From Lachnospiraceae bacterium (GTDB lineage Bacteria > Bacillota > Clostridia > Lachnospirales > Lachnospiraceae): a stretch of DNA of 41,010 nt. The stretch is from positions 1-41,010 of the forward strand of contig JAGBBM010000091.1 of assembly GCA_017938485.1 (NCBI GenBank), given 5' to 3'. The position numbers and the translations under genes are program-made. Positions 1 to 23,693 of the stretch are shown here, piece after piece. Within the stretch, counting starts at the first letter, position 1; the number at the start of each line of letters is the position of its first letter. The notes under the pieces were generated by a model. That model was not told where the DNA came from and did not search any database. It saw nothing but the letters and a program-made list of their open reading frames with translations.

Positions 1-1
1 G

Positions 2-307
2 ACTGCGGATGTAGTCATATCTGCAGATAGAACTGCAGTGACATATGTTAAGTACACGGATGAGATACCTAAGGTTCCGTTTCTTTTTGAAAATCCATCA
101 GTTGAGCAGATGTACGACTTCATCGAATCAAGATGTATGCCAAAGCAACGTACGCAGCTGCAGGATTATTTAGATGAGCTGGAACTGGAAGAGTATAATC
201 CTTGGGACATAGTAAAACGAACTCATGGTGTGATGTGGGAGGACTTTTTATGGTTTAAGTTCCCGGATGAAAATGTATCGTGGGATGAGGTGAAAGTTCG
301 TGATTAA
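2..307 (+). CDS. Partial CDS, partner of HipA-like kinase (3' end only)
   Basis: The frame is open from the left edge of the window, so the true start lies upstream; a GTG at 38 is an internal possibility. About 101 residues are visible. They end in a Trp/Asp-rich stretch (WEDFLWFKF, then SWDEVKVRD). The stop overlaps the GTG start of the HipA-like kinase gene by 8 bases, so the two are translationally coupled. From memory, similar small proteins with a PW/DP-D-I-V...T-G...ED-WF pattern precede HipA-like kinases in Firmicutes. The role (antitoxin, adaptor or separated N-terminal kinase subdomain) is not established here. Confidence 0.6.
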   Translation, partial: TADVVISADRTAVTYVKYTDEIPKVPFLFENPSVEQMYDFIESRCMPKQRTQLQDYLDELELEEYNPWDIVKRTHGVMWEDFLWFKFPDENVSWDEVKVRD

Positions 308-1097
308 AGAATATAATATTGAGGAAATCTATCGAAGACAAATAGGCTATGGAAGTCTTGGTATGACCAATAAGTTTTTTAAAGATAATTATTGGTATAA
401 GCAGAACAATAAGGGATATGAGGGAAAGAGCGAGTATTTAGTTACCAAGATTCTTGATAATTCTGACATTGGTAATTATGCATCCTATGAAGAGTGTATA
501 ATTAATGGTGTGCCAGGGTGCAGGAGTAAGAATTTTCTTAATGAGGGAGAAAGTTTAATTACGCTATCCAGATTGTATAATCTTACGTATGGTGGCGATT
601 TAAAAAATAAAATCAACTCTTATGTACTGTTATCCGATAGAATCGAGTATGTAATGGATTTTGTTAATGAATTTACAGGACTTGATATACATAATTATTT
701 GGGCAAAGTATTAAAGATAGACATGCTTACTTATGATGTTGATAGACATTTTAATAATCTGGCCATAATTAAGACTAATGATGGATACAAAGAGGCACCT
801 CTATTTGATTATGGAGCTTCATATTTCAGCATGCAGCATGTATTTACTGATAATATGAGCTTGGCCGAAAAAATAAAGAAAATGACACCGCAGCCGTTTT
901 CGGCATCCTTTGAAGAACAGGCAATGTATTTTCAAGATGTGGAAATATCATTAGATTATGATGGTATTACCAGAGCTATCAAAAATGAATCATCCGAGCT
1001 TCAGGAGATAATATTGTTTAATCTTGATAGATATAAGTTTATGTTTAATGATAAAAAAATAGTTCGTGAGCTTGATGCTATAGATATTGAAAGATAA
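300..1097 (+). CDS. HipA-like Ser/Thr kinase domain protein
   Basis: This 265-residue protein carries the C-terminal catalytic signature of the HipA/CtkA kinase superfamily. The catalytic loop is D-V-D-R-H-F-N-N at residues 146-153 (putative catalytic Asp148 and metal-binding Asn153). It is followed by APLFDYGAS at 166-174, where Asp170 occupies the DFG-like Asp position. E45 and K50 (SEYLVTK) are candidates for the nucleotide-binding pair. It is much shorter than E. coli HipA (about 440 residues) and lacks its N-terminal subdomain, which may be supplied by the preceding gene. The start is GTG at 300, overlapping the upstream stop, and a terminator follows directly. HipA phosphorylates a tRNA synthetase to cause growth arrest; the substrate here is unknown. 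It may instead be a phage-defence or signalling kinase. Confidence 0.72.
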   Translation: MIKEYNIEEIYRRQIGYGSLGMTNKFFKDNYWYKQNNKGYEGKSEYLVTKILDNSDIGNYASYEECIINGVPGCRSKNFLNEGESLITLSRLYNLTYGGDLKNKINSYVLLSDRIEYVMDFVNEFTGLDIHNYLGKVLKIDMLTYDVDRHFNNLAIIKTNDGYKEAPLFDYGASYFSMQHVFTDNMSLAEKIKKMTPQPFSASFEEQAMYFQDVEISLDYDGITRAIKNESSELQEIILFNLDRYKFMFNDKKIVRELDAIDIER

Positions 1098-1106
1098 TTT
1101 TTATAG

Positions 1107-1138
1107 TCCCGGTAGAAATACCGGGATTATTTTTTTTA
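1107..1138 (+). terminator. Rho-independent terminator after HipA-like gene
   Basis: CCCGGTA at 1108-1114 pairs perfectly with TACCGGG at 1119-1125 around a GAAA tetraloop. A T-rich tract with a run of T follows. It lies 10 bases after the HipA-like stop codon. Confidence 0.9.
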
Positions 1139-1241
1139 TTTATGATGATACGCAAGGCGATTTTCTTATTCGGTTGGTTCGCCGTTTAGGTGGAGTCTGA
1201 AGAACAGGATGAGCCGAGAAGTGAAAAAAAGTAGCAAGCAT

Positions 1242-1304
1242 GGGTTTTATGTTCATTGTGTAAAACACAACGAACAAAAACCCCTCTTGTTGGGGAGACC
1301 CCAA
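1242..1304. repeat. Tandem large hairpins, mobilisation-region-like non-coding DNA
   Basis: GGGTTTT (1242-1248) pairs with AAAACCC (1277-1283). Inside it, GTTCATTGTGT (1251-1261) pairs with ACACAACGAAC (1265-1275) with one mismatch, giving a stem of about 19 bp around an AAA loop. Immediately after, TTGGGG (1290-1295) pairs with CCCCAA (1299-1304) around AGA. No convincing gene was found between 1141 and 1320. The text, including the downstream run of C, resembles DNA next to relaxase genes and oriT in clostridial mobilisable elements. That likeness is from memory and no relaxase gene is present, so a decayed element is an inference. Confidence 0.4.
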
Positions 1305-1412
1305 GCCCCCTGCGTTAATTAAAAAAAGTTAAGATTTAAATAAAAAAATACAAACCACCCGATAAAAAGTGATTTGTACATTTGCATTTTTTTATAATGT
1401 TTATAAAATAAT

Positions 1413-1446
1413 AAGTACCAGCTGCAATTGGTATAGGCTGGTACTT
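1413..1446. repeat. Perfect 10-bp inverted repeat
   Basis: AAGTACCAGC (1413-1422) is perfectly complementary to GCTGGTACTT (1437-1446) across a 14-nt spacer. It lies in DNA with no recognisable gene and has no T tract, so it is not a simple terminator. It could be a protein-binding site or part of a longer folded transcript. Confidence 0.6.
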
Positions 1447-1499
1447 GTTCATTGATAACTAAATAGGTCACAGCAGTACATGAATCACTCCTAGCACAC

Positions 1500-1582
1500 G
1501 CTAATTCCTATTTAATATTAAGTTGTGTTAGAAATATAACACACATAATATTTTTTTACAAATCTATAAATAGGAGCGTAGC
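1500..1582. repeat. Nested inverted repeats in non-coding DNA
   Basis: GCTA (1500-1503) plus CCTATTTA (1507-1514) pair with TAAATAGG (1567-1574) plus TAGC (1579-1582). They enclose a second hairpin, TGTGTTA (1524-1530) with TAACACA (1537-1543). A T run at 1551-1557 follows the inner hairpin, so it could act as a terminator. The alternative structures look switch-like, but no riboswitch class is recognised. Confidence 0.45.
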
Positions 1583-1619
1583 ACAAATTCTAACGTGTAA
1601 GATGCGGTAATGGAGGTTA

Positions 1620-1762
1620 TGGGGCCACTGAAAAAATTAGTGGGTTGACTGAGAAAGAACCATATTTAGAGGATAATGATACTTCCGGTGGAAAACAGCA
1701 CCGGCGGCTGGGATGCCGATGTCGGGTGACATATGTCTCAGGGAGGGATGAACCTGGGAGCT
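1620..1762 (+). ncRNA. Candidate GC-rich structured RNA upstream of ISLre2-type transposase
   Basis: This block is clearly richer in G and C than the surrounding DNA and can fold into successive hairpins: CCACT/AGTGG (1625-1629 with 1639-1643), CCGGTG/CACCGG (1685-1690 with 1699-1704), CGGC/GCCG (1705-1708 with 1715-1718), TGTC/GACA (1720-1723 with 1728-1731), and CTCAGG/CCTGGG with a wobble pair (1737-1742 with 1753-1758). One frame stays open for about 57 codons here but has no start or ribosome binding site, so decayed coding DNA is the alternative. I do not recognise a named RNA family. The block lies just outside the left inverted repeat proposed for the IS. Confidence 0.35.
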
Positions 1763-1842
1763 GCGATGGACTATAATTAAAATTCCGACTTCTGTAAAAA
1801 ATTTCATACTATAATATAGAGTATATTTACAGGAGGATAAAT

Positions 1843-3252
1843 ATGATTGAGGTAAAAGAGCTATTAGAGATAAGTTTTGAGGAATTGGAAAAAAAGATTT
1901 TTTCGTTTATTTGTGATATGGGGAAAGAGATTACCATATATCTTTTGCAACAATTAGATGAACACCTTATGAAGAATAGAGACAGAAAAAGATATATCTC
2001 AAAGCAGACTAGGATGGTAACCATTAAGACGGTATACGGAGAGGTAGAGTATGCCAGAAGAATGTATTATGATCGTGAAGAACAAAGATATGTTTATTTA
2101 TTGGATGATAATATGCAGATGGAACGTATTGGAAGTATCTCATCTAATTTGGCAAAGAGAATAGCTGAAGCATCTATTGATATGTCGTATAGAAAGGCTG
2201 CATCCACCATATCAAAAACTACAGGACAGAGTATAAGCAGTCACGGAGCTTGGAATGTGGTTCAACAGATTGGAGATGTAATACAAGCCGAAGAAAAGGA
2301 ACTGCTTAGAGATATGAAGAAAGATGAAACTTCCGGAACAGAGGAAGCAAAGGTTATATTCATGGAGGCAGATGGGGTGCATCTGCATATTCAGAAGGAT
2401 AAGAAGAAAGCACCATCAAAGGAACTTAAGCTATCAACCATATATGATGGCTGGGTATGTGATGGAAAGAGACTACATAACAAGAAGGTATTTGCCGGTA
2501 TGGAAAAGGCAGATATATTTAATCAGAAAACAGAAGCTCTGATTCAGAGCGTTTATGATACATCCGTAACGGAATTAAGAGTTGTTAATGGGGATGGAGC
2601 ATCCTGGATAAAGAACACATATGAGCCAGACAGAATATTTCAGTTAGACCGTTTCCACATTAAACAAGAAATAACAAGATGCATAAGTAATAAGCACATT
2701 CAGAGAATGATATTCGAGAGGTTACATGATAATAAGATTGATGAGATGTTGGAGGTTATTAAAACATATATAAATAGCATCGATGATGGAACCAATGAGT
2801 CAGATGTGAAAAAAGCAAAAAACTTATTTAACTATTTGTTTAATAATTATGATGGCTTATTGCCATGGCAGTTACAGGCAGGCATAGTTCCTGAAGCTCC
2901 TGAAGGAATAACATATAAGAATATGGGAGTTCAGGAAAATCAGAACTGTAGCCTCGTGTGTATGAGGATGAAAGGTCGTAAGATGAGATGGAGTATTAAC
3001 GGAGCCAATAACCTGGCAAAGTTAATATATATGAAAGAAAATGGAGATTTAGACAGAATTATTGAGAAGGCAGACGGTAAGATACTGATACCAGACGAGA
3101 TAGATTTAAGCATGGATAAAGTACTTAGTGCCGATAAGATAAAAGAAAAGGTTGGAAAAGGAAATAAGTGGATGGAACTTATACAGGCAACTATGCCAAT
3201 GATTAAGTATAATGGTCCATACGCTGATTTGTTACGCAGTTTGGAAAGATAA
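1843..3252 (+). CDS. ISLre2 family (UPF0236) transposase
   Basis: A 469-residue protein of the length expected for ISLre2 transposases. It has a charged N-terminal region that probably binds DNA (residues 45-75, ending in the VKTVYGEVEY-like strand typical of the family). A DDE-type core follows: VIFMEADGVH at 171-180 (Asp177), VVNGDGASWIK at 247-257 (Asp251), then LDRFHIKQ at 268-275. The start is fixed by AGGAGG at 1831-1836, six bases before the ATG. The gene looks intact, with no internal stop. Its cut-and-paste or copying mode is not evident from the sequence. Confidence 0.92.
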   Translation: MIEVKELLEISFEELEKKIFSFICDMGKEITIYLLQQLDEHLMKNRDRKRYISKQTRMVTIKTVYGEVEYARRMYYDREEQRYVYLLDDNMQMERIGSISSNLAKRIAEASIDMSYRKAASTISKTTGQSISSHGAWNVVQQIGDVIQAEEKELLRDMKKDETSGTEEAKVIFMEADGVHLHIQKDKKKAPSKELKLSTIYDGWVCDGKRLHNKKVFAGMEKADIFNQKTEALIQSVYDTSVTELRVVNGDGASWIKNTYEPDRIFQLDRFHIKQEITRCISNKHIQRMIFERLHDNKIDEMLEVIKTYINSIDDGTNESDVKKAKNLFNYLFNNYDGLLPWQLQAGIVPEAPEGITYKNMGVQENQNCSLVCMRMKGRKMRWSINGANNLAKLIYMKENGDLDRIIEKADGKILIPDEIDLSMDKVLSADKIKEKVGKGNKWMELIQATMPMIKYNGPYADLLRSLER

Positions 3253-3283
3253 TTATACACATGTGAAATACAACCGTGTATAA
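3253..3283 (+). terminator. Hairpin after transposase
   Basis: TTATACAC (3253-3260) is perfectly complementary to GTGTATAA (3276-3283) with a 15-nt loop, directly after the transposase stop. It lacks a long T tract, so terminator strength is uncertain. Confidence 0.45.
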
Positions 3284-3319
3284 TATTGATTATAGATAGC
3301 TCTAAATTATAGAAGGAAA

Positions 3320-3338
3320 TACCACCCACAAAGTGGTA
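3320..3338. promoter_or_regulatory. Inverted repeat upstream of HEPN-NACHT promoter, operator candidate
   Basis: TACCAC (3320-3325) is a perfect inverted repeat of GTGGTA (3333-3338) with a 7-nt spacer. It lies 26 bases upstream of the -35 box of the HEPN-NACHT operon and touches the right end of the proposed IS repeat. It could bind one of the WYL regulators encoded in the operon, or it could be a leftover terminator stem. No functional evidence is available. Confidence 0.3.
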
Positions 3339-3363
3339 ACACATTCATGGGTAAGTAGTGATG

Positions 3364-3393
3364 TTGACGGTAATAAATATAAAATGATATAAT
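3364..3393 (+). promoter_or_regulatory. Sigma-A type promoter of HEPN-NACHT operon
   Basis: TTGACG (3364-3369) and TATAAT (3388-3393) are separated by 18 bases. They lie 49 bases upstream of the ATG, between the IS and the first gene of the operon. The operon therefore appears to be transcribed independently of the IS. Confidence 0.7.
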
Positions 3394-3441
3394 TGTTTAA
3401 ATAGACACTAGAAATGAACAAAGTATAAGGAGACTCTAAGG

Positions 3442-5298
3442 ATGAATACGAAAAAGATTAAGGTAAAAGCAGAGGAATTAAACAGAAAATTGAGAAATAG
3501 CTGGATATGGAAACCTCTTAGTGGTTGGTTTAAAAAATGTAACGGAGAGATAACTGATGAAATGATAGAGTTATACGTGTACGTGCTTGATGAAGATGGA
3601 CCAGATGAATTCAGTGCCTTAGGTCAAAAATATCAAAATCTAATTGATATCACAGATTTACATTTGAGTGAATATAAAAGTGTTAACTACACGGTTGAGG
3701 CATTATTGAAGAAAATGCTATATATGATAGATTATAATGCTCTTGAAAATTATAGAGCAGAACAGCATAACGGACTTAAATCACTATTAAAGCCTGTTCA
3801 GCTTGTTGATAAAAGTTTTTATACGAGAAGTGAAAAAACGGGAAAAGAAGCAATCTTTGAATCAGTTGTTAATTATCGGAATACAATAGCACATGATGCA
3901 AAAATAAATCAGCCACAAACTATATCTGAGATAATCTGGAAATCTCTTTTCACAGAATTATGGGCAGTGAAGATACATCAAGATGCTTTACGGAATAAGC
4001 TGAGCGAAAAGATAACAAATCGCTCAGATGAGTATGAGGCAGTTGTTGCAAAGTATATAGAAGTATCTATAAATAAATATGAGGAGGATAACTTTAAATA
4101 TGTTCAAATAGAGTATGAAAACACTCAAAATCCAAACGAGAATGACGGAAATATAGGTGATATAATCAAGGGAACCGCAGATACAATAATGACTCAAATT
4201 AATTTTGCTGAAACACCAAGCGTTAAGTTGATAGCTGAAGCGGGAATGGGAAAAACAAAGATGCTTGAGTATATCAATTATATTCTTATGAAAGACATAA
4301 AAGAGGGCAAAGACATAAAAGAGGGCAAAGACATAAAAGAGGGCAAACCTGAAGTTTTGCCAATTATAATATATTGCAATGATGTTTACGGAGATTTGAA
4401 AGATTCTACATATTTATTCAAAGATGTAATTATTAAAAAAATTAATAAATTTTTAGAAGAATATAAACCAGAGTATATATACGAGGAAGATAAGATATTA
4501 GAATATTTGGTTAATAAGTATCAGGTTATTTTTTTAATTGATGGTCTTAATGAAATAATAAAAAACACAATGAAGAAAACCCTATTTATTACAAAACTTA
4601 ATGATTATAGAATGAGTGATTCTGAAGGTAAGAATTGCTATTATCTCATGACAGAACGATATTCTAGGGGTGCTGTAACTGTAGACGATAAAATTCAGTA
4701 TTATAAATTATCAGAACTTACTGAGCTAATTAAAATGGAGTTTTTTAGAATAAATGGGGAAGAGACTTTTTTTGATAGGCTTAAAATTATAGCTAAAAGT
4801 TATAATCCAGAAGAACAAAGAACTTTTAATGAATTATTGTGTAAGCCATTTTATCTTTCTGTTTTTTGTAGCATGGCGGATGAGTTACGTGAAAAGGAGG
4901 ATAAGGAACTTCCAAAATCAAAATACGAACTAATGGATATGTTTGTTAAAGCGTTATTAAAAAGAGAACAGGCAAAAGGAGAAAGTGCAGCTGTTTTTGA
5001 ATGGATAAGACTTTATTTGAAAGAATTGGGCAAGAAACTAAAACCAAATAACAATTTTATTGATTTTGAAACCGTAGCTGCTACTTTAAAAAATGTAACA
5101 GTAGAAAATGGATTAAAATTTGAGTTTTATTCATCAGACAAAATTTTGCAACTGTTTGAACAGCTGGGATTTTTGTATCATGTAGATGATAGCATATATA
5201 TAAATGATATTTACGCAGAGTATATGAAACAGTTGAATGCAAAAAATGTCGCACAAGAATCCAGAGAGTTGGCTATAAAAGAATTGGAGTTAGATTAA
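3442..5298 (+). CDS. HEPN-NACHT STAND NTPase (candidate antiphage effector)
   Basis: A 618-residue protein. Residues 1-190 are helical and contain Y-R-N-T-I-A-H at 145-151, matching the R-[N/D]-x3-H catalytic motif of HEPN ribonucleases (Arg146, His151). A NACHT-type P-loop NTPase follows: Walker A A-E-A-G-M-G-K-T at 265-272, Walker B V-I-F-L-I-D-G-L-N-E at 362-371, and a sensor-like TERYSR near 404-409. A winged-helix-like segment ends the protein (FLYHVDDSIYINDIYAEY). Bacterial NACHT proteins are known antiphage sensors in which NTP-driven oligomerisation activates an N-terminal effector; RNA cleavage is inferred here from HEPN. The usual C-terminal sensor repeats are absent and may be on the next gene. 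The start is supported by AAGGAG at 3427-3432. The gene is notably AT-rich. Confidence 0.8.
   Translation: MNTKKIKVKAEELNRKLRNSWIWKPLSGWFKKCNGEITDEMIELYVYVLDEDGPDEFSALGQKYQNLIDITDLHLSEYKSVNYTVEALLKKMLYMIDYNALENYRAEQHNGLKSLLKPVQLVDKSFYTRSEKTGKEAIFESVVNYRNTIAHDAKINQPQTISEIIWKSLFTELWAVKIHQDALRNKLSEKITNRSDEYEAVVAKYIEVSINKYEEDNFKYVQIEYENTQNPNENDGNIGDIIKGTADTIMTQINFAETPSVKLIAEAGMGKTKMLEYINYILMKDIKEGKDIKEGKDIKEGKPEVLPIIIYCNDVYGDLKDSTYLFKDVIIKKINKFLEEYKPEYIYEEDKILEYLVNKYQVIFLIDGLNEIIKNTMKKTLFITKLNDYRMSDSEGKNCYYLMTERYSRGAVTVDDKIQYYKLSELTELIKMEFFRINGEETFFDRLKIIAKSYNPEEQRTFNELLCKPFYLSVFCSMADELREKEDKELPKSKYELMDMFVKALLKREQAKGESAAVFEWIRLYLKELGKKLKPNNNFIDFETVAATLKNVTVENGLKFEFYSSDKILQLFEQLGFLYHVDDSIYINDIYAEYMKQLNAKNVAQESRELAIKELELD
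4291..4344 (+). repeat. Three exact 18-bp tandem repeats inside NACHT gene
   Basis: The unit AAAGACATAAAAGAGGGC occurs three times without a mismatch (4291-4308, 4309-4326, 4327-4344). It encodes K-D-I-K-E-G three times at residues 284-301, between Walker A and Walker B. Because 18 is a multiple of 3, gain or loss of units keeps the frame and changes only the length of a charged surface loop. Confidence 0.95.
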
Positions 5299-5314
5299 AG
5301 GAGGAAATTAAGTT

Positions 5315-7876
5315 ATGAAAAATGTAATTCTTGGGTATTGTAAAGAAAACAATGTAGAAGATTTACATTTGTTTATTAGAGATATTACGCTTAATTTCAC
5401 AGATTTTGATGCAGTTTTAATAGTGTTAAGATTTGTTATAAAATCTAATCTTTTTTTAGGGTGCAAAGAATATATAAAAATAAAAAATGTATATGCTCTT
5501 TGGGGTGATGAAAATAAAACAATTCTAAAGGAAAAGATATTTGATATAGCAGATAACACAATTCGCACTAAAATTGATGAGAGTCTTAAATCGAATGAAT
5601 TTAATAAAGTATGTGATGCAATTATTGCATTATATACTATTGGAGAGTTTGATGGGTGTAAAGATTTTTTCTTGAAAAACCAAAATGTGGGAAAGTATAT
5701 TTATAAGGTTGTACATGAGTGTGAATTTGACTCATTTTTAGCGGAATATGTATATGATGTGATTTTGTTTGTTTTTAGTGCATCCAAGGAATTAGATGAT
5801 TATTATAGTGGAAAATGCATACGTGCGATAAAATTGAATAATCAAAGTATAGGGCTGTTTTGGAGTAAAAAGAAAGAACATATACTTGAATTATTAAAAT
5901 GGTATTTTGAAAAAGAAAAATATATATCTTTACATGCATTGATAAAAATTCTCGAAGGTGCAACTGTTATTGATGGACCAGACATGTATAAAACTTATGA
6001 GTATCTTGATGTGAGTAAAGAGGAGTTCTTGGAAAAAACATTTAGTAATGCTACAGTTAGAGCGTTAGATTTTTATTTTATCGCGAAATACAAACAAGAA
6101 ATCCCATCATTAGATGAACTTAAGCATATACTTGAGTTGAATAGTTCTTCTAGTGTGTTTTGCGTTGTCCACCAATGTCTTTTAAAGATTAGGGAAGTTG
6201 GTGGTATTGATGCAAATATAGAAGAAATATTAACTTTCATTAAAAATAAAATCAAGGCTGGTGAATTATACTTTGATGCGACTGATGAATACATCGATGG
6301 TGGTATTGTAAACGGTATTTTAGATTATAATATACAAGATGTTTTTCAGATGTTGTGTAAAAAAGAGGGCGATGTAAAATCATTTTTATGGATGGTTTCA
6401 TACTTTAATTGTTTTCAAAATGGGAATTTACGATTGAATTACACCAAGATTAGGGTAGATAAAGTTCGTAAATCTGATTGGAAACAGGAGTATAATTATA
6501 TATGCAAACGATATGACAAGAAAAGCGATATAATATATATTGTTATGAATACATATCTACGCTTTTTTGTTAATTTGGAAGAGTTATTAATAAATTATCT
6601 CGATAATTTAAGGGAATTTTGGTTTTTAGGACAAATTACCACTCGTGGGGATATAAATTTTTTAAGAGCTTCTAAAGATTATGAATTGGATAAAAAATAT
6701 ACAATTAAAATATATGAATCACAAAATGATATAAAAGAAAAACCTGAAGAGATGCGAGAAGTTAGGTTCAGAATTGCAAGTGTGGATTTTAATAGTAATA
6801 TTATATATGCGAAGGATATTGAAACCATACCAGAAGCTTTTAGTGAGCATATATATAATAAAATTCATGCCTTATTGCTGTCAGGAGATATATTGTCAGC
6901 ATATTATTATTTGAAGAGTTTTGAAAAAACAGGTCATAACCTTTATTCGCATAATGAATATGTGAAAATAATAAGAAGGACATCTAAGAATCATAGTGTA
7001 ATATGTGATGTGTTTAAATATTGTGATGAAGAATATAGAAAATATTTACAGTATATTTACCTTAATTCTGACGTCAGAGGTTTTGTGCCTATAGAAAATG
7101 TATATGAGTGCTTTGAAATAGGAACGAGCTTTTTGGGGAACATAAATTTAAAAGATAACTTGTATTTTGAAAAAAGTGATTGCTATTTTATTTCACCTAA
7201 TTTTTGGAATCCATCCAGAAAATTGTTTTGGATTAAGAAAGAAAATTTATCAAAGGAATTCGCTTGCTTTATAAACGGACAGTTGAAAGATAAGCATGAT
7301 ATTAGAGTAATTTTTTATCCGAAACCTAGTGAAAAGGATCTAAGTTTAGAACTTGATAAGGTGAATTTGCATTGCAAGGAAGAGGTGCTTGATTTACCAT
7401 CCGCTGCTAAGTTATTTTACACAAAAATATACAAAGGAAATACAGAGGGAAATAAAAAAAATATAATTATGAATTATATCAGAACATATAACAAGTGTGT
7501 AGAAAATGAAGTGATAGAGTATAGTGATGAATGGATAAAATTTTTCGAGATTTATTTAATGTACCTTTATTCTGAAATTTTTAATACTTATTGTAATTAT
7601 TCTCAAAATATACGTAAATGGATATGGTTTGATAATAGGTTAAATAAAACTAGCTACAATAAAAATAATTATTTTTTTATTCTACAAAATGAGTTGCTTG
7701 ATAGACTGAGAGTGAGCGAAGAACTTAAGCACTTTATTCAATCAGATATTAATTATATAAAAATAATGGACGCGTTAAAGGCTTTTGAAGAAATACGACC
7801 TATTGTATATGATATGACCATATTTAACCTATTATTTGATAGCAAAGAAGATTTTTTACATAGCTTTGATTATTAG
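5315..7876 (+). CDS. Large partner protein of HEPN-NACHT, unknown family
   Basis: An 853-residue protein I do not recognise. The first ~370 residues are mostly alternating hydrophobic and charged helices, consistent with an alpha-solenoid (HEAT/ARM-like) scaffold. The middle (about 415-520) looks richer in strands, perhaps OB-like (GQITTRGDINFLR, then VRFRIASVDFNSNIIYAKDI). A second strand-rich patch near 610-680 is followed by a helical C-terminus. No membrane segment, nuclease or protease motif was seen. It starts 16 bases after the NACHT stop behind AAAGGAGG (5297-5304), in a different frame, so it is a true separate gene. The inferred role is the sensor or repeat half of a split NACHT protein, recognising phage or nucleic acid. 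The base composition is very AT-rich, like the NACHT gene. Confidence 0.7.
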   Translation: MKNVILGYCKENNVEDLHLFIRDITLNFTDFDAVLIVLRFVIKSNLFLGCKEYIKIKNVYALWGDENKTILKEKIFDIADNTIRTKIDESLKSNEFNKVCDAIIALYTIGEFDGCKDFFLKNQNVGKYIYKVVHECEFDSFLAEYVYDVILFVFSASKELDDYYSGKCIRAIKLNNQSIGLFWSKKKEHILELLKWYFEKEKYISLHALIKILEGATVIDGPDMYKTYEYLDVSKEEFLEKTFSNATVRALDFYFIAKYKQEIPSLDELKHILELNSSSSVFCVVHQCLLKIREVGGIDANIEEILTFIKNKIKAGELYFDATDEYIDGGIVNGILDYNIQDVFQMLCKKEGDVKSFLWMVSYFNCFQNGNLRLNYTKIRVDKVRKSDWKQEYNYICKRYDKKSDIIYIVMNTYLRFFVNLEELLINYLDNLREFWFLGQITTRGDINFLRASKDYELDKKYTIKIYESQNDIKEKPEEMREVRFRIASVDFNSNIIYAKDIETIPEAFSEHIYNKIHALLLSGDILSAYYYLKSFEKTGHNLYSHNEYVKIIRRTSKNHSVICDVFKYCDEEYRKYLQYIYLNSDVRGFVPIENVYECFEIGTSFLGNINLKDNLYFEKSDCYFISPNFWNPSRKLFWIKKENLSKEFACFINGQLKDKHDIRVIFYPKPSEKDLSLELDKVNLHCKEEVLDLPSAAKLFYTKIYKGNTEGNKKNIIMNYIRTYNKCVENEVIEYSDEWIKFFEIYLMYLYSEIFNTYCNYSQNIRKWIWFDNRLNKTSYNKNNYFFILQNELLDRLRVSEELKHFIQSDINYIKIMDALKAFEEIRPIVYDMTIFNLLFDSKEDFLHSFDY

Positions 7877-7901
7877 AATAATCAACAAACGAGGATAAAT
7901 A

Positions 7902-9260
7902 ATGTCAAAGGTACAAGAAAGAAGACTAAAGCTATTACAACAATTTCAATTTAATAAAGTACTTAGCTTAGATGATATTATGAATACATATGGTGTCAGT
8001 AAGCGTACTGTTCAAGGAGATATAGAAAGTCTTAATAGTATGGGCTATTCTATATCTATGCCCCGTTCAGGTGAGAACAAAGGGTGTTATATATTTGAAC
8101 AAACAGAAACGTTGGCGACTTATGATGAGCAAGCTACTGGAGATATATATTACGTGTCAGAAGCTATGAATGGCATAGCTGGCGATATGCTTATTCTCTT
8201 GCTTTTGCAGGATGAAAATGGCAGAAAACTTGAGCTTGCCTCTGATGAACTTTATAGAAAAGTAAGAGGTAAAGAGTTGTCAGAGGATGGTACATATTTG
8301 TATGGTAGCAAAAGCTCATGGTATAAGTCTGCCATTAAAAGGTTAAAGGAAGCGCACTGTATTAAAGAAAGAATTGTAATAGACAGTGGTAAATCAGTAA
8401 TAAAATATCAGTTGGATATCGCAGCACCACGTTTTGTTAAACTTGCTCAGGCTGGAGATATTGGTTATGATGATTTTTATACAGTCTCAAAAGACATTCT
8501 TGAAGAATACAATGGAGATAGGGATACTAGGATAAAAAGAATACTTTCAAAGCTTCAGCTTCATATGACTGGTGTGAAGAATGCTCAGGAGATATATTAT
8601 ATCGTGGGTGAACGATTAATTGATGAGGAGAAAGCTATTGAACAGATAAAGACCCAACTGATAAAGTATCCCTATAGGGAAAAAGCTTTACGCGTAAAGT
8701 ATAAAACTCTTAAAGGTAACCAAGTTTTTACGGAGGATATCAAGGTTGGTATGCTTTTATTTGCCGTGAGTACTAACAGTCTATATCTGGTAGCTGAAAG
8801 GGTAAATGGTACCGGAATGGTTTACATAATGGTATCTACAATTGAACAGATTAACACCTTGGAAGATGTTGACAATGATATATATAATTCTGAAAAATAT
8901 GTTAGTGCGGTAAAATATATGCTTGGACCGGCAGGAATATCTATGAATGGAACACCAGTGGATATAAGGGTTGAATTTGACAGATTTAGCAATGTTGAAG
9001 ATAAGGTAAAAACTTATGTAGAAGCTAGGAAAAAGCAGGGTGCCTCTGCCAGTCTTTCTTACAGTGATGACGGAAAAACTTTGATATATAAAGACTGTGT
9101 TTATGGTGTGGCAGATATTAAAAGTTTTCTTAGGGGCTTTGGCTCATCATGTAGGGTTATAGAACCGGAGGAACTAAAAAAAGATATGGTTAATTCTGCG
9201 TGGAATATACTGGATAAATATAAGAGTGAAGGTTATGATATAAGGGATGAAAAAAGATAA
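7902..9260 (+). CDS. HTH-WYL transcriptional regulator 1
   Basis: A 452-residue regulator. Residues 1-68 form a DeoR-type winged HTH (LSLDDIMNTYGVSKRTVQGD at 21-40). A second winged-helix-like unit lies near 85-170. A WYL-like beta domain spans about 258-320 (Y-R-E-K-A-L-R-V-K-Y-K-T-L ... L-L-F-A-V ... L-Y-L-V-A-E-R), and a WCX-type C-terminal domain about 350-425 ends in S-S-C-R-V-I-E-P-E-E. WYL domains bind nucleic acid or nucleotide ligands and commonly regulate defence operons. It starts 25 bases after the partner gene and overlaps the next WYL gene by 14 bases, so all four genes probably form one transcript. It most likely controls the upstream promoter. The direction (repressor or activator) cannot be read from the sequence. 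Confidence 0.82.
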   Translation: MSKVQERRLKLLQQFQFNKVLSLDDIMNTYGVSKRTVQGDIESLNSMGYSISMPRSGENKGCYIFEQTETLATYDEQATGDIYYVSEAMNGIAGDMLILLLLQDENGRKLELASDELYRKVRGKELSEDGTYLYGSKSSWYKSAIKRLKEAHCIKERIVIDSGKSVIKYQLDIAAPRFVKLAQAGDIGYDDFYTVSKDILEEYNGDRDTRIKRILSKLQLHMTGVKNAQEIYYIVGERLIDEEKAIEQIKTQLIKYPYREKALRVKYKTLKGNQVFTEDIKVGMLLFAVSTNSLYLVAERVNGTGMVYIMVSTIEQINTLEDVDNDIYNSEKYVSAVKYMLGPAGISMNGTPVDIRVEFDRFSNVEDKVKTYVEARKKQGASASLSYSDDGKTLIYKDCVYGVADIKSFLRGFGSSCRVIEPEELKKDMVNSAWNILDKYKSEGYDIRDEKR

Positions 9261-10392
9261 TAATTATACCAGTGCAATAGAATTATTGATGGACGTAGCT
9301 ATGCTTCTTCTTAATAGAGATTATGATGATAATTTTGCTGATTATGAAGGTGGATTATCAATAAAAGATATTTCTGATATATTGGATTATTCTGTGGAAA
9401 CTATTAGAAAAGTTATTTCTGAATTAGCTAGATTTTATGATGCAAGCTACTATGATGAGAGTAAAGTTAAACAGAAATGGAGCTTAAGACTTTGCTACCA
9501 GTTACCTGATTATGAGCTTAAAACTGGTGATATGGAAGAATTACATGAAATCTTAACATCCTATAGAGAAAAGAGAAGTAGAGTTTTTTCATCAGGTAGA
9601 TTTGACAATGTGAAATTTTATATGACATTTGATGACGGTTTTGTTGGTGAATCATCTATTGTTGACATCCCATCTGATGCGGCATATTTGATGCTTTCGG
9701 CAAATGATTATAATGCTCTTAGAAATTTTCTCAAGGACAAATACATTTCTGATGATATATTGCATATGGATGAGAATGATTTTTATAATGTTATACCGAT
9801 GTATACTACATCGACAGAGGGGAATATTACTGTTGAGAGAGAAATTGCAGAGGCTATTATTTATAAAAATGATATAGATATAGAATATGGGAGAAGCGGA
9901 GAAATTAAAACCATAAAGCCTCTTAGGATTGTAAGATATAGTTTATATGGTGTGTCTTATGTTGTTACGGTAGAAAATGGTAAGCTTGCACCATATAGAA
10001 TTGACAGGATACAGAAACTTTGCGTAAATGAAAAGTCAAACATAAAGATAGATGACTTGACACCACTTGCTACACTTCCGTATATATGGGGAATGGATTC
10101 ATCTTCAGGAGATGCAGAGGTTACACTTAAAGTATACAATCATAATAACGGAAAAGTTGTGGATAAGGTAAGGCGTGATATAGCTTATTATCAGCAAAAG
10201 GCTGATTATAGGATTGAGGAGCTGAATACGGGAGATATTATTGTAAGTGGATATGTCATTGGTAAGAATGCATTTTTAAACTGGGTGCGAACCTATGGTG
10301 CATCTATGGTTATACTTGAACCTAAGGAATGGGGACAGGAGATTATAACTAGTGCAAAGAGAAAGCTAAGGAAATATGGCATAGAGATGTAG
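9247..10392 (+). CDS. HTH-WYL transcriptional regulator 2
   Basis: A 381-residue protein with an N-terminal HTH (about 36-66, LSIKDISDILDYSVETIRKV) and a WYL domain at about 198-255 (I-D-I-E-Y ... I-K-P-L-R-I-V-R-Y-S-L-Y-G-V-S-Y-V-V ... Y-R-I-D-R-I). A WCX-type domain at about 275-365 ends in G-A-S-M-V-I-L-E-P. Its start lies within the last 14 bases of the preceding regulator, so translation is coupled and the two may work as a heteromer. It differs from regulator 1 in having a single HTH and a shorter middle. It is the last gene of the operon; a strong terminator begins three bases after its stop. Confidence 0.82.
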   Translation: MKKDNNYTSAIELLMDVAMLLLNRDYDDNFADYEGGLSIKDISDILDYSVETIRKVISELARFYDASYYDESKVKQKWSLRLCYQLPDYELKTGDMEELHEILTSYREKRSRVFSSGRFDNVKFYMTFDDGFVGESSIVDIPSDAAYLMLSANDYNALRNFLKDKYISDDILHMDENDFYNVIPMYTTSTEGNITVEREIAEAIIYKNDIDIEYGRSGEIKTIKPLRIVRYSLYGVSYVVTVENGKLAPYRIDRIQKLCVNEKSNIKIDDLTPLATLPYIWGMDSSSGDAEVTLKVYNHNNGKVVDKVRRDIAYYQQKADYRIEELNTGDIIVSGYVIGKNAFLNWVRTYGASMVILEPKEWGQEIITSAKRKLRKYGIEM

Positions 10393-10394
10393 CG

Positions 10395-10433
10395 AAAAAA
10401 GGAGTCACATTTATATAATGTGGTTCCTTTTTT
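10395..10433 (+). terminator. Strong terminator ending the HEPN-NACHT-WYL operon
   Basis: A 16-bp stem (10395-10410 with 10418-10433) contains two G-U pairs and a 7-nt loop. It starts with six A and ends in six T, so it can act in both directions. It marks the right end of the four-gene operon. Confidence 0.9.
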
Positions 10434-10557
10434 GATGCGAAAAAATGCGAAAACTAATATGATATATTGTATTTACGCAAGGGACAAAAACCTTGGATGA
10501 ACATAAATATTAAGTCAATTATAAATAAAAATTTTTTATTAGATGGAGGAAATTATT

Positions 10558-10791
10558 ATGAACAAGAAAAATATATTAAAGCTTATGGTGACAGCAGCGA
10601 GTATGGTTATGATGGTGATATGTGTAGGATGTGGAAAACAGGATGCTAATGTGGAAACTGACGCAAATACAGTGATTTTGTGGGGAGAAGAATATGAGAT
10701 GAATGGAACATACACTGACGAAGAGCAGGGAAATGACAATGAGACTAAGACAATTATTCTTTGGGATAAAGAATATGAGATTTGTAATTAA
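10558..10791 (+). CDS. Small predicted lipoprotein with duplicated motif
   Basis: A 77-residue protein starting at ATG 10558, placed behind GGAGG at 10544-10548; an in-frame ATG at 10543 lies upstream of that site and is less likely. Residues 1-25 form a signal peptide with a lipobox ending in Cys25 (I-C-V-G-C). The mature part is acidic and carries two copies of one motif: T-V-I-L-W-G-E-E-Y-E-M and T-I-I-L-W-D-K-E-Y-E-I. It is probably exported and lipid-anchored. The function is unknown. It lies between the WYL operon terminator and the ClpP-like gene, 22 bases upstream of the latter, and may be co-transcribed with it. Confidence 0.6.
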   Translation: MNKKNILKLMVTAASMVMMVICVGCGKQDANVETDANTVILWGEEYEMNGTYTDEEQGNDNETKTIILWDKEYEICN

Positions 10792-10813
10792 CAAGGAAGA
10801 CTAAGGTGATTTT

Positions 10814-11410
10814 ATGGATAGATTTTTATGGAAACCAGTGGTGGAGGTTTCAAACAACTCTGGAATAAGACAGGTTGAGCTCATGACAAAGCATTTTATG
10901 AAGAGAAGAGTTTTTCTTAACGGGCAGATTGATAGTGAATCTGTCCATTCTATGCTAATACAGCTCATGTATCTGGTAGATGATGGTGATGCACCGATTA
11001 ACATATACATAAATAGCAGTGGAGGAGAGGTTAACTCAGGACTTTTATTATATGATTTTATTCAGAGTATTAAGTGCCCTGTTAACATATATTGTACAGG
11101 TATAGCGGCCAGTATGGCAGCAGTTATTTTGGCGGGTGGACAAAAAGGAAGAAGATTTATTTTGCCTCATTCTAAGGTTATGATTCATGAGCCACTACTT
11201 TCCAGTGGATTGGCGGGTTCAGCAACCAGTATCAAGAATATATCAGATTCAATTATAGAAACTAGACGCTTGATTAATGGCATCCTTGCCAAACATACTG
11301 GTAAGTCAATTGAGGAGATTGATGAGGCTACAAGTTTTGACAATCATATGAATGCAATACAAAGTATAGAATTTGGCATATGTGACAAGGAAGTTGAAGG
11401 TTTGTTTTGA
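10814..11410 (+). CDS. ClpP-like serine protease (accessory paralogue)
   Basis: A 198-residue protein in the ClpP/crotonase fold. The catalytic triad appears intact: Ser100 in G-I-A-A-S-M-A-A, His125 in H-S-K-V-M-I-H-E-P, and Asp176 in S-F-D-N-H-M. The oxyanion strand NSSGGEVNSGLLLYD (residues 67-81) is conserved. Housekeeping ClpP usually has PGG and GMAAS; here these read SGG and GIAAS. The gene is not beside clpX or tig but beside a TraG-like ATPase. It is therefore likely an accessory or element-borne ClpP, comparable to phage and plasmid versions that process specific substrates. The stop overlaps possible upstream starts of the next gene. Confidence 0.85.
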   Translation: MDRFLWKPVVEVSNNSGIRQVELMTKHFMKRRVFLNGQIDSESVHSMLIQLMYLVDDGDAPINIYINSSGGEVNSGLLLYDFIQSIKCPVNIYCTGIAASMAAVILAGGQKGRRFILPHSKVMIHEPLLSSGLAGSATSIKNISDSIIETRRLINGILAKHTGKSIEEIDEATSFDNHMNAIQSIEFGICDKEVEGLF

Positions 11411-11457
11411 TGATAAATTATTCTGTGTTTGTGCAGATGCAGAAGGGAGGATTTGTG

Positions 11458-12699
11458 ATGTTTAAGGACTGTTTAATACTGGGAGAAGATCAGTATTATA
11501 GTATGAATTCGTATGAGACTCAGGTTAATAATAATGTTTTGGTTGTAGGTGCAGCAGGGAGTGGTAAAACGAGAAGTTTAGTTATACCAAATGTTCTGCA
11601 GGCCACAGGAAGTTATATAATATCTGATCCCAAAGGAATGCTTTATAAAAATTATGCAGATTATCTTAGGGATAGGGGGTATGTTATTAAAGTTTTAGAC
11701 CTTATTAGTCCTAAAAAGTCCACTAATTACAATTTTTTTCATTACATAAGGACTGAGAGGGATATTATAAAAGCTGGTAATATGTTGGGCAATGCTTTAA
11801 TTAATTTAGCTGATAGTAATGAACCATTTTGGGAGAATGCAGCGGAAATGCTTATGATTGCATTGATTGCTTACCTTGTTTTGCATAGACCAAAGGAGGA
11901 ACACACCCTTGAAGGAATAATGAAATTAACAAGACTGGCAAATATTAATGAGAGAGATTCTGCGGAAAAGACTATATTGGATTTATTGTTTGATGATACG
12001 CATAGACAGGAACCAAATAATTTTGCTTATCGTCAATATCAAAAATTTAGAGTTGGTGCAGGTAAAACACTTAAGTCAGTAATAATAACCTTGAATGCCA
12101 AGTTTAAGGATTTGGATTTTGATGAGCTTAATAAAATGATGTCTAAAGATAGGATGAATATCCCTAGTATAGGGGAGAAGAAAACCGCCGTCTTTGTTAT
12201 TGTAAGCGATATGGAACGTTCTATGGACTGTGTTGCTAATATGTTTTATTCACAGTGTTTGGAAGTGCTTTGTTCTGAGGCAGATAAGAAAACGGGAGGA
12301 AGGCTTAAAAATGATGTGAGGTTTATTCTTGATGATTTTGCTACAAATTGTGTTATAGATGATTTTCCTAAGAAGATATCAGCATTTAGATCTAGGGGTA
12401 TATCTGCAATGATTATGCTTCAATCAGAACAGCAACTTGATGCTTGTTATCCGAGACAGGGAAATATTGTTATAGGAAATTGCGATAATTATGTATATCT
12501 TGGGGGAAATGATTTATGTACAGCAAATTCAATAGCAAGAAGATGTAATGTTCCAATAGAAGAGGTACTTTATATGCCTATAGGAATGAATTGGTTAATA
12601 AGACGAGGACAGAAACCTATATTGGGAAGAAATTTTGAACTTGATACATATTATTCTAAGCTTGATGCTGATGTTATGGAGGAAGAACTGGAAATGTAA
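11458..12699 (+). CDS. VirD4/TraG-like coupling ATPase, soluble orphan
   Basis: A 413-residue protein starting at ATG 11458 behind AAGGGAGG (11443-11450). TTG 11407 or ATG 11410, overlapping the clpP-like stop, are possible alternatives. The type IV coupling protein fold is clear: Walker A G-A-A-G-S-G-K-T at 31-38, YIISDPKGMLY at 53-63, NEPFWENAAEMLM at 121-133, Walker B R-F-I-L-D-D-F at 288-294, and ISAMIMLQS. The usual Walker B pattern LDEF reads LDDF. N-terminal membrane segments typical of TraG/VirD4 are absent, and no relaxase, VirB4 or other conjugation gene was found in the window. It may be a remnant of an integrative element or a re-purposed DNA-pumping ATPase working with the ClpP-like protein. 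Confidence 0.8.
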   Translation: MFKDCLILGEDQYYSMNSYETQVNNNVLVVGAAGSGKTRSLVIPNVLQATGSYIISDPKGMLYKNYADYLRDRGYVIKVLDLISPKKSTNYNFFHYIRTERDIIKAGNMLGNALINLADSNEPFWENAAEMLMIALIAYLVLHRPKEEHTLEGIMKLTRLANINERDSAEKTILDLLFDDTHRQEPNNFAYRQYQKFRVGAGKTLKSVIITLNAKFKDLDFDELNKMMSKDRMNIPSIGEKKTAVFVIVSDMERSMDCVANMFYSQCLEVLCSEADKKTGGRLKNDVRFILDDFATNCVIDDFPKKISAFRSRGISAMIMLQSEQQLDACYPRQGNIVIGNCDNYVYLGGNDLCTANSIARRCNVPIEEVLYMPIGMNWLIRRGQKPILGRNFELDTYYSKLDADVMEEELEM

Positions 12700-12741
12700 T
12701 GAAGATGATGATTATGAAAAATGTGAAAGATAAGTTTTTTC

Positions 12742-12773
12742 TAAAAAAAGAGGGGTAGTCATTACTACCCCTC
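12742..12773 (-). terminator. Terminator of ABC-F gene, overlapping its stop codon
   Basis: GAGGGGTAGT (12750-12759) pairs perfectly with ACTACCCCTC (12764-12773) around a 4-nt loop. On the minus strand it is followed by a T tract (the A run at 12743-12749). The ABC-F stop codon (12765-12767) lies inside the stem. Confidence 0.9.
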
Positions 12774-14750
12774 CAACTCATAAAACCTTTCATATAGTTC
12801 CATAAGCTCAGTGTCGTATTCTTCCAGCTTGGTGGCTAGTTCTCCTAGTTTAAAGGAGTTAGTTGCATTGGCTGGGTCATTTATTTCTTCATTAAGTTTT
12901 TCAATTAGGGCTTCAACCTCAGCGATTCTTGCCTCGGTTTTCTTTAATTCATTTGCCTTCTTTCTGAGGCGGGCTTGTTCTTCTTTGTTTTTTAGATAAT
13001 CTTCTTTTGATGTAGTAACGCCAGCTGTAGAACTGTTACTTGCTTGTGCCGAATCATTAGCTGTAGAAATACTATTGTCAGTCATGGTAGAATCACCACT
13101 TACGCTGGTAAATGGATTAGCATTTCTGTCAGTAACGCCATATACGTTATCCTTATGGCTTTCGTAGTAATCGTAGTTTCCTATAAAGTTGTATAGTTTC
13201 TTATCTTTTAGCTCTACAATTCTAGTTGAGACAGAATTGATAAAGTATCGGTCATGACTTACAAAAAGAACAGTACCAGTATAATTTCTTATGGCTTCCT
13301 CTAAGATTTCCTTGGACTGAATGTCCAAGTGGTTAGTAGGCTCATCCAGAATTAGAAAGTTAGCTGGAGAAAGCATAAGCTTGGCAAGGGATACTCGTCC
13401 ACGTTCTCCACCGGATAAATCTCCAATCTTTTTGAATACATCTTCCCCGGTAAATAAAAATGCAGCAAGTACATTTCTGATTTTTGTGTTGTTTAAATCT
13501 GGATAGGAATCAGAAATCTCCTCAAATATAGTCTTGTGAAGAGAAAGTACCTGATGTTCCTGGTCATAGTATCCAATCTTTACTCGTGAACCCAAAGAAA
13601 CTGTTCCTAAGTCTTTTGAGACAAGTCTGTTTATTATCTTTAAAATTGTAGTTTTTCCCGTCCCATTACCACCGATAAGAGCCACATGTTCTCCTCGTTT
13701 TACTTCTAAATCAAGGTTAGAAAAAAGTGTATTTTGCCCAAAACTCTTGGATAAATCGGTGATTGTAAGGACGTCGTTACCACTTTCCACAGATGGTGTG
13801 AGACTAAGTCTCATCTCTGAGGCAACCTCTGTTGGTTTTTCCAGAACTTCAATTTTATCAAGCATCTTCTCACGACTTTCAGCTCGCTTGATAGACTTTT
13901 CTCTGTTGAACTGCTTAAGCTTTGTTATAACTGCTTCCTGGTGTTTAATCTCCGCCTGTTGATTGAGATATGCCTTCATCTGGCTGGCGCGGATTTCTCC
14001 GCGCTTTTTTGAATAGTAGGTGTAGTTGCCGTGGTATACTATGCCTTTCGTGTTATCTATCTCCACAACTTTTGTGGCAATCTTATCGATAAAGTATCTA
14101 TCATGGCTCACGATAATAACGCTGCCAGAGTATGCAGAAAGAAATCCTTCTAGCCAAGTGATGGAATTCATATCAAGGTGGTTTGTAGGCTCATCAAGTA
14201 TTATAATGTCAGGTCTGGTAAGAAGGAGTCTTCCGAGAGCAATACGCATCTTCTGACCACCGGAAAGGGTGTTTATATGTCTGTCGTAATCGCTTTTGTC
14301 AAAACCAAGACCTTTTAGTACACCTGTTATTTCACTTTCGTAAGCATAACCATTTTCACGGTCATAGGTGCTTGATAGACGATTATATGTCTCTAGGATT
14401 TTCTCTAATTCTTCACCCTTTGCACTTTTCATATCAAGCTCTAATTGCCTGATATTTGCCTCCATATCTATGATATGTTTCTTTGTGGCAAGCATCTCAG
14501 CATATACAGTATTGTCGAAAGAAATGTCCTGATGCTGAGAAAGATATCCTATTGTGGTATCTTTGCCAATAACTATTTGTCCTTCGTCAGGAGTCTCCTC
14601 CCCCATAATAATCTTGAGCAGAGTGGTTTTTCCGGAGCCATTTATACCCACAATGGCAATCTTTTCTTTATCCTCTATGTGAAATGATATATCTTTTAGA
14701 ATTTGGTCAACTCCAAATGCCTTACTTATGTTTTGACAGGCTAAAATCAT
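12765..14750 (-). CDS. ABC-F family ATPase (ribosome-associated)
   Basis: A 661-residue soluble protein with two ABC domains and no membrane segments. NBD1 has Walker A G-I-N-G-S-G-K-T at 35-42, signature LSGGQKMRIALGR and Walker B I-I-I-L-D-E-P-T-N-H-L-D. NBD2 has G-G-N-G-T-G-K-T, LSGGERGRVSLAK and F-L-I-L-D-E-P-T-N-H-L-D. The charged linker between them (near 240-310) is the ABC-F arm that reaches the ribosomal P/E sites. A Ser/Thr-rich spacer precedes an ~80-residue C-terminal coiled coil, as in Uup/YdiF-type members. The role is probably in translation rather than transport; antibiotic-resistance activity cannot be assigned from the sequence. The ATG is preceded by AGGAG on the minus strand. 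Confidence 0.93.
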   Translation of the reverse strand: MILACQNISKAFGVDQILKDISFHIEDKEKIAIVGINGSGKTTLLKIIMGEETPDEGQIVIGKDTTIGYLSQHQDISFDNTVYAEMLATKKHIIDMEANIRQLELDMKSAKGEELEKILETYNRLSSTYDRENGYAYESEITGVLKGLGFDKSDYDRHINTLSGGQKMRIALGRLLLTRPDIIILDEPTNHLDMNSITWLEGFLSAYSGSVIIVSHDRYFIDKIATKVVEIDNTKGIVYHGNYTYYSKKRGEIRASQMKAYLNQQAEIKHQEAVITKLKQFNREKSIKRAESREKMLDKIEVLEKPTEVASEMRLSLTPSVESGNDVLTITDLSKSFGQNTLFSNLDLEVKRGEHVALIGGNGTGKTTILKIINRLVSKDLGTVSLGSRVKIGYYDQEHQVLSLHKTIFEEISDSYPDLNNTKIRNVLAAFLFTGEDVFKKIGDLSGGERGRVSLAKLMLSPANFLILDEPTNHLDIQSKEILEEAIRNYTGTVLFVSHDRYFINSVSTRIVELKDKKLYNFIGNYDYYESHKDNVYGVTDRNANPFTSVSGDSTMTDNSISTANDSAQASNSSTAGVTTSKEDYLKNKEEQARLRKKANELKKTEARIAEVEALIEKLNEEINDPANATNSFKLGELATKLEEYDTELMELYERFYELEG

Positions 14751-23650: not shown

Positions 23651-23693
23651 TCTACAAAGAGTGAACAGAAATTATAACTCTTTTAAAGCAATA

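Follow-up and report, generated by a model that had tools for sequence, protein, structure and literature searches.

A proposed split HEPN-STAND receptor next to a portable WYL pair in a four-gene unit of a Lachnospiraceae genome

The window analysed here is a stretch of 41,010 nucleotides (contig JAGBBM010000091.1, assembly GCA_017938485.1) from a Lachnospiraceae metagenome-assembled genome (MAG; genome G000, 2.43 Mb, 88% complete, 137 contigs, with the window as contig C72), and it contains four open reading frames (ORFs) in one direction, P0001 to P0004, coding for 618, 853, 452 and 381 amino acids. The reading favoured here is that P0001 and P0002 form a split HEPN-STAND receptor, to which P0003 and P0004 add a pair of WYL regulators borrowed from elsewhere. 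The intergenic gaps are 16, 25 and -14 bases in order, and ribosome-binding-like sequences stand before all four genes, clear for genes 1 and 2 and weaker for genes 3 and 4. The layout supports one transcription unit.

The promoter of the unit agrees with the consensus at 11 of 12 positions and is one of two such matches among 53 promoter-like matches in 2500-11500. Since this total is about the shuffle expectation (mean 50.8, standard deviation 6.6), it is only by its rank and its place that the promoter is supported. A 19-base inverted repeat, possibly an operator or else a remnant of an insertion sequence (IS) or terminator, ends 25 bases before the -35 box. None of 200 shuffles folded as stably as the terminator, which was nevertheless absent from the sites returned by the terminator-like-site scan despite its strong fold energy. 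The GC fraction of genes 1 to 4 is 0.30, 0.27, 0.35 and 0.33, against 0.37 for 12765-41010, so that P0001 and P0002 are more AT-rich than the two WYL genes. The initial annotation, made from the letters of the window, had claimed tight spacing, this promoter, a strong terminator and AT-rich DNA, and all four claims held, the promoter as a joint-best match within a total no higher than that of shuffles.

Table 1. Features of the unit and of its surroundings in the window.
Feature	Position	Strand	Evidence or remark
19-base inverted repeat TACCACCCACAAAGTGGTA	3320-3338	.	listed as terminator-like stem, minus strand
Promoter of the unit	3364-3393	+	TTGACG-18-TATAAT, extended -10 (TG before -10)
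P0001, probable HEPN + NACHT-like STAND NTPase	3442-5298	+	ORF and motifs; profiles below cut-off
HEPN motif R146-N-x3-H151	3877-3894	+	motif scan
Walker A AEAGMGKT, residues 265-272	4234-4257	+	motif scan
In-frame 18-base tandem repeat, 3.2 perfect copies (KDIKEG)	4291-4347	+	repeat scan
Walker B VIFLIDGLNE, residues 362-371	4525-4554	+	motif scan
IYINDIYAEYMKQL, P0001 residues 585-598	5194-5235	+	sequence; presumably like the end of the NACHT winged-helix module
P0002, orphan protein, proposed trans sensor arm	5315-7876	+	own ribosome-binding site AAAGGAGG
P0003, HTH-(WYL)-WCX regulator, first of pair	7902-9260	+	Pfam HTH_11 E=1.3e-7, WCX E=3.6e-6; PADLOC WYL E=5.5e-12
P0004, WYL-WCX regulator, second of pair	9247-10392	+	PADLOC WYL E=6.9e-16; WCX E=3.5e-5; HTH_DeoR E=0.0032, under cut-off
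Intrinsic terminator	10395-10433	+	fold -17.4 kcal/mol, z = -6.6
Candidate -26 element TGCGAAAAAATGCGAA-N11-TATATT	10436-10468	+	directly behind unit terminator; matrix score 27.4 (matrix seed)
PDC-M03B-like gene, outside unit	38-307	+	PADLOC PDLC04348 E=1.1e-5; cut by contig start, frame open to base 2
PDC-M03A-like gene, outside unit	300-1097	+	PADLOC E=5.8e-10; Pfam HipA_C E=0.015, under cut-off
ISLre2-family transposase	1843-3252	+	NCBIfam NF033529 E=6.5e-75
Small lipoprotein-like ORF	10543 or 10558 to 10791	+	behind -26 element
ClpP-like protease	10814-11410	+	behind -26 element
CD1115-type VirD4	11407-12699	+	behind -26 element

P0001 is probably a HEPN-type, NACHT-like STAND NTPase, with clear motifs and sub-threshold profile scores. 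Its HEPN motif, RNTIAH, agrees with the rule Rx4-6H with a polar residue after R, as given in the 2013 HEPN survey (PMC3710099). The pattern RNxxxH was present in 0.84% of 20,000 shuffles of P0001. The combination expected of STAND and NACHT proteins, a Walker A (AEAGMGKT) together with a DGxxE-type Walker B (LIDGLNE), was also found, the DGxxE type being a form that we take to be characteristic of NACHT. Presumably LIDGLNE, CKPFYLSVF and IYINDIYAEYMKQL resemble the NACHT Walker B, proline and EYFAA-type segments, respectively. The protein ends 20 residues past the last of these (the EYMKQL segment, 585-598), and a C-terminal sensor on the same chain is not present. Pfam PF18735 (RiboL-PSP-HEPN) scored E = 0.0007 and 20.0 bits against the N-terminal piece (cut-off 28.4), and nSTAND3 scored E = 0.055 and 13.6 bits against the NTPase piece (cut-off 27.2). 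Pfam NACHT matched neither whole P0001 at E ≤ 1 nor the NTPase piece at E ≤ 10, so the label NACHT is owed to the motifs. No NCBIfam match was obtained, PDB searches by sequence returned nothing for P0001 or its two parts, and P0001 and P0002 together matched none of the PADLOC families at E ≤ 1. A TPR_Edg1 score at the C-terminus (E = 0.0025, under cut-off) was not believed. The KDIKEG tandem repeat sits shortly after the Walker A, and its length may vary between strains because the copies are perfect.

P0002 begins in a different frame from P0001, behind the strong ribosome-binding site AAAGGAGG of its own, with an in-frame stop directly before its start and further in-frame stops upstream, and the division into two genes is therefore not due to one missing base. 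The whole protein returned no match in Pfam, PADLOC or NCBIfam at E ≤ 1, in PHROGs at 0.1 or among PDB sequences at 1, no S1, cold-shock or TPR match was obtained, and BLASTP against itself gave no internal repeats. A PDB search by sequence returned nothing for residues 421-520. In separate PDB searches profile A1 gave nothing either, and the one weak match of profile A2, to 8vd6 CAP REPEAT (E=0.0055), was taken as chance. Several weak candidates were set aside: Exo84_C (E=0.0047) and Tsr1 (E=0.051) in the first 292 residues and COMMD1_N (E=0.08), the last a sub-cut-off score from the piece search of P0001 and P0002, were not believed, and an S1 or cold-shock domain suspected by eye at 430-510 was unsupported by the searches. 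A Cas13-like reading was rejected as well, as the three Rx4-6H matches, two of them overlapping, stand in no recognisable context. Crude helix and strand propensities were uninformative.

P0003 and P0004 both match WYL and WCX profiles. Their WYL-WCX parts aligned to each other with an hhalign probability of 97.7, and by this comparison the two are paralogous over WYL-WCX, like PafB and PafC. Two adjacent paralogous genes of helix-turn-helix (HTH)-WYL-WCX type, the arrangement of PafBC, were accordingly found, the HTH clear in P0003 and sub-cut-off in P0004. The proteins claimed in the initial annotation, a STAND NTPase with an R-N-x3-H HEPN motif, an unrecognised 853-residue protein and two WYL regulators, were thus recovered, the first by its motifs, the second as an orphan without family matches and the last two by profiles.

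Relatives were sought in genome sets that overlap, with few candidates scored per genome, and in contig scans that require exact stretches of about 8 residues, so that distant relatives were possibly missed. P0003 at E ≤ 1e-10 was found in 3/250 family genomes, its own included, and a four-row profile at E ≤ 1e-12 in 4/260, three of which were already rows in the profile while G004 was new. With the P0004 alignment (A3), the only relative among 76 pattern matches in genome contigs was the locus of G581 (contig JAFTPO010000025.1 of a Lachnospiraceae MAG from roe deer caecum, taken to be contig C13 of G581), and none of 600 pattern matches in viral contigs was a relative. P0003 had no relative in viral contigs, and P0004 none in plasmids.

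Five WYL pairs were seen in all, the window's included, four of them beside defence-type genes and only one beside HEPN-STAND. In G581, a genus relative, the pair (locus L013; 47% and 56% identical to the pair of the window) forms the end of a type III operon that codes for Cas10, Cas6 and RAMP proteins and has a CARF-HEPN-like first gene and two CRISPR arrays upstream. A 67-residue frame between two CRISPR arrays of the same genome (L024, 3647-3850) resembles the start of Cas1 by eye and looks like a remnant. The pair of G004 (L023) stands behind Cas13a (E = 7.6e-161) and a 746-amino-acid protein, on a contig whose ends carry 4 and 7 copies of CRISPR repeats; the 746-residue protein (3605-5845), placed between Cas13a and the pair, had no match in PADLOC at E ≤ 0.001 or Pfam at 0.01. 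In G207 (L007) the pair converges on an island that codes for two DNA methylases together with one HEPN_Swt1 and one DUF4420 protein. The fifth pair is that of G197 (L006). The better reading of these places is that the WYL pair is a separate, portable regulator module of defence loci and not a dedicated part of the receptor.

P0002 was found in 1/299 family genomes and 1/279 phylum genomes, both times the window's own genome, while plasmids and phages held no relative, and none of 8 pattern matches in viral contigs and 25 in genome contigs was one. P0001 was likewise found in 1/299 family genomes, its own. The order set gave 3/295, its own and two weak matches, an ABC transporter and a glutamine-synthetase-like frame, and the phylum set 2/269, its own and a weak match to a UbiB-like frame; on inspection by eye all three were judged to be chance matches. 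Phages and plasmids held no relative of P0001, nor was one present among 9 pattern matches in viral contigs. When the DNA of the unit was compared with 37 genus genomes, its own genome and G581 alone responded, and in G581 just the WYL genes matched.

These results bear on the proposal of the initial annotation that the four genes form a single system, for which it had named gene-neighbourhood conservation as a check and lack of co-conservation in other genomes as the ground for giving it up. Because P0001 and P0002, chance matches aside, were found in no other of the genomes searched while relatives of the WYL pair adjoin other systems, the four genes are not co-conserved, and the proposal fell at this check. 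The idea of an anti-phage system made of these four genes and no others, its WYL proteins repressing the unit promoter until infection in the manner of CapW and BrxR, was therefore dropped after the co-occurrence test and is unlikely, even if the tight same-direction spacing would suit it. The regulators of CBASS and BREX, as described in PMC9122588 and PMC9122589, are WYL regulators tied to defence loci as here, and the inverted repeat before the -35 box would suit a repressor, given that models of CapW place it on CBASS promoter palindromes some 20 bp long (PMC9122588). CapW and BrxR are, however, products of single genes, homodimers that repress from palindromic operators, and not a paralogous pair, whereas here there are two genes; the 19-base inverted repeat stands upstream of the unit.

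A promoter element that the portable pair may use was found, of the form TGCRAAAWAATGCGAA-N11-TATAHT, with the second repeat at -29 to -24, which is the place of the PafBC -26 motif. In the window the second TGCGAA falls at -29 to -24 by count, and the next best distinct site scored 12.3 against 27.4. Six genus genomes were searched in full with TGCRAANNAATGCGAA at no more than one mismatch, with the reversed pattern as control, which gave 24 matches against 7 in the control. Five of the 24 had no mismatch, namely two each in G000 and G581 and a single one in G588. The four exact sites of G000 (C72:10436, C125:3406) and G581 (C13:3582, 4448) are all preceded by a T-run and followed by N11 and then TATATT, TATACT or, twice, TATAAT, while the exact G588 site is without the N11/-10 pattern. 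Read by eye, one of the G581 sites precedes the cas1 remnant and the other the type III cas operon. Five further genus genomes yielded six one-mismatch matches against 8 in the control, and none exact. A looser pattern added a 17-base form at C125:260 of G000. The two strong copies at 260 and 3406 (L051) belong to a contig that also holds ParA, ParB and SSB-like genes, as read by eye, and one of these copies precedes a DnaJ-domain-like gene.

The weight matrix was built on five sites (the four exact ones and C125:260) at spacing 11, and these seeds scored 27.4-29.5 against 12.1-17.0 for 12 random windows (one strand). No site reached 17 in a 209-kb sample of G000 or 20 in a 305-kb sample of G581, which had two sites, at 19.3 and 18.0; C13 of G581 itself held extra sites at 22.5 (L013 18865), 19.3 (L013 12963) and 18.0, and a site inside a WYL gene of L023 scored 19.0. 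Because of the gene-internal site and the two sample sites, only scores of at least 22.5 stand out. The L013 site at 12963 is directly behind the WYL pair and before pilus-type genes. In 400 kb of G588 one site scored 21.5, starting at a one-mismatch match, with no gene start found behind it. At other spacings the sites of at least 20 were the same strong ones, each scoring below its value at 11, and a single further site, in the G000 sample (22.6, spacing 8); this is not independent proof of the spacing because the matrix was built at 11. The Cas13a locus of G004 shows, by eye, a loose likeness to the element: TGCACAAA occurs 28 bases before TACTAT with a TGTGAA half ahead of the operon, and 28 bases before TATAGT without that half directly behind the WYL pair.

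The element was present in 2/2 genomes with the pair and 0/9 without (Fisher p = 0.018, kinship not corrected), where pair-less genomes were judged by the DNA search of 37 genus genomes, which misses diverged pairs. According to PMC11804915, PafBC acts by a -26 motif, to which PafB attaches while PafC contacts domain 4 of sigma, with single-stranded DNA (ssDNA) as trigger, and PafBC and its orthologues are described there as the only heterodimeric WYL proteins reported as of 2025. We propose the pair as PafBC-like because the second TGCGAA lies at -29 to -24 and PafBC works by a -26 motif. A candidate element of the PafBC type, next to the -10 and with no clear -35, was seen behind the unit and near the pair of G581, and near that of G004 only as the loose likeness described above; its use by the pair is a candidate link drawn from sequence.

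Among known systems, the bNACHT/Avs (AVAST) proteins share the effector-NTPase layout and the NACHT-type Walker A and B, whereas P0001 has no NACHT profile, PADLOC or NCBIfam match, its sensor would be off the chain, and its anti-phage role is predicted. The WYL accessory protein of Cas13d loci (WYL1) is reportedly a single protein that boosts Cas13d; there too a WYL protein goes with a HEPN system that cuts RNA, whereas here it is a pair, found next to HEPN-STAND in the window and behind Cas13a in L023. The 2013 HEPN survey (PMC3710099) described bacterial proteins that unite HEPN-STAND-TPR-S1 or HEPN-STAND-cold-shock in one chain, and in these an N-terminal HEPN is likewise joined to a STAND NTPase, but in the present unit the chain stops after the NTPase and the rest is a separate gene without S1, cold-shock or TPR match. 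Mycobacterial PafBC (PMC6789036, PMC11804915) likewise consists of two adjacent paralogous WYL-WCX genes and has a -26 promoter element next to the -10 with no clear -35. Here, by contrast, the pair belongs to a Firmicute and stands beside defence genes instead of the Pup-proteasome (no Pup-proteasome genes were recognised by eye among the window ORFs), its ssDNA response and dimer are putative, and the likeness is drawn from the position of the element. Neither a split HEPN-STAND receptor nor a WYL pair beside CRISPR was named in the titles and abstract openings among the matches listed, by which absence from print is not established.

Starting from the gene layout, the motifs, the finding that the two regulators are paralogous over WYL-WCX, the place of their relatives beside other defence systems and the element with its spacing, we tentatively favour two modules under one promoter, a split HEPN-STAND receptor (P0001 and P0002) and a PafBC-like WYL pair; the GC difference between the modules was counted in its favour. 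Every functional step that follows is one we infer. P0001 would combine an RNase effector of HEPN type with a NACHT-like NTPase, and P0002 would serve in trans as the sensor arm, which in one-chain receptors is C-terminal, a role proposed because P0001 ends about where such receptors pass into their sensor and one-chain HEPN-STAND proteins with TPR-S1 or cold-shock parts have been described. On infection P0002 would release P0001 for nucleotide exchange and oligomerisation, upon which HEPN dimers would form, RNA would be cut and the cell stopped. P0003 and P0004, as a PafB/PafC-like pair and probably a heterodimer, would sense a nucleic-acid ligand and activate promoters with the -26 element, including the one directly behind the unit.

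Several observations weigh against the two-module reading. The HEPN and STAND profile scores of P0001 both stay under curated cut-offs, P0002 has no convincing domain, repeat or relative, its role as sensor being drawn from position and analogy, and the HTH of P0004 is below the profile cut-off. No defence gene was recognised by eye near the G197 pair, and that WYL proteins accompany CRISPR loci in general is already known (PMC9122589). The -26 element was not found in the unit's own promoter, nor at the L006 and L007 loci, and of the two G004 sites the first scores 13.1 and the second is unlisted by the matrix, while random sequence reaches 17.0. The L013 site at 18865 (22.5) precedes a prepilin-peptidase-like gene, so another regulator may own the element, copies of which also occur on a second contig of G000, and the link between element and pair is partly circular because some of the counted sites had served to define the motif.

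The lack of a domain, repeat or relative in P0002 also leaves room for its being an independent protein, whether it acts as another effector, neutralises the HEPN toxin or simply travels as cargo on the shared transcript, as no relative is available for testing linkage to P0001. We regard this as improbable, since P0001 ends about where sensors begin, P0002 follows 16 bases on, and the very low GC is common to both genes.

The surroundings of the unit support a mobile, defence-rich setting. The ISLre2 transposase, for whose element terminal inverted repeats were not found, stands between the PDC-M03 pair and the unit, and behind the unit the ClpP-like gene and the orphan CD1115-type VirD4 coupling protein (10814-12699) are probably a remnant of a conjugative element. 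A defence-like place between an IS and a conjugation-type gene had been suggested from the outset, and ISLre2, VirD4 and the candidate PDC-M03 pair upstream agree with it. No CRISPR array was recognised in window positions 1-13000 (20 largest of 49 direct-repeat families shown), a tRNA search found none, and the sole Rfam match at the gathering threshold was a lysine riboswitch (23693-23864, 107 bits), before a dapA-like gene as read by eye. That the whole stretch is decaying, now inactive cargo of an old conjugative element (VirD4, ClpP-like, IS) would fit the orphan VirD4 and the transposase, the occurrence in one MAG only with P0001 and P0002 unfound in the relatives searched, and the weak ribosome-binding sites of genes 3 and 4, but it is very improbable given four long intact frames with promoter, terminator and ribosome-binding-like sequences.

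A wider extension of the favoured two-module reading, which we consider doubtful, would have a split NLR-like receptor governed by or coupled to a PafBC-type heterodimer outside actinobacteria with a -26 promoter class of its own, moving between type III CRISPR, Cas13a, methylase-island and HEPN-STAND loci and serving defence in all of them as one nucleic-acid alarm. If true, bacterial NLR-like receptors could be built from separate effector and sensor chains, and the sensor might be changed while the killing part stayed as it is. Defence systems of gut Firmicutes that are unrelated to one another would likewise share one WYL-pair alarm, resembling the mycobacterial DNA-damage regulator PafBC, and the promoter element makes this idea directly testable, so that regulator and element are the more testable part.

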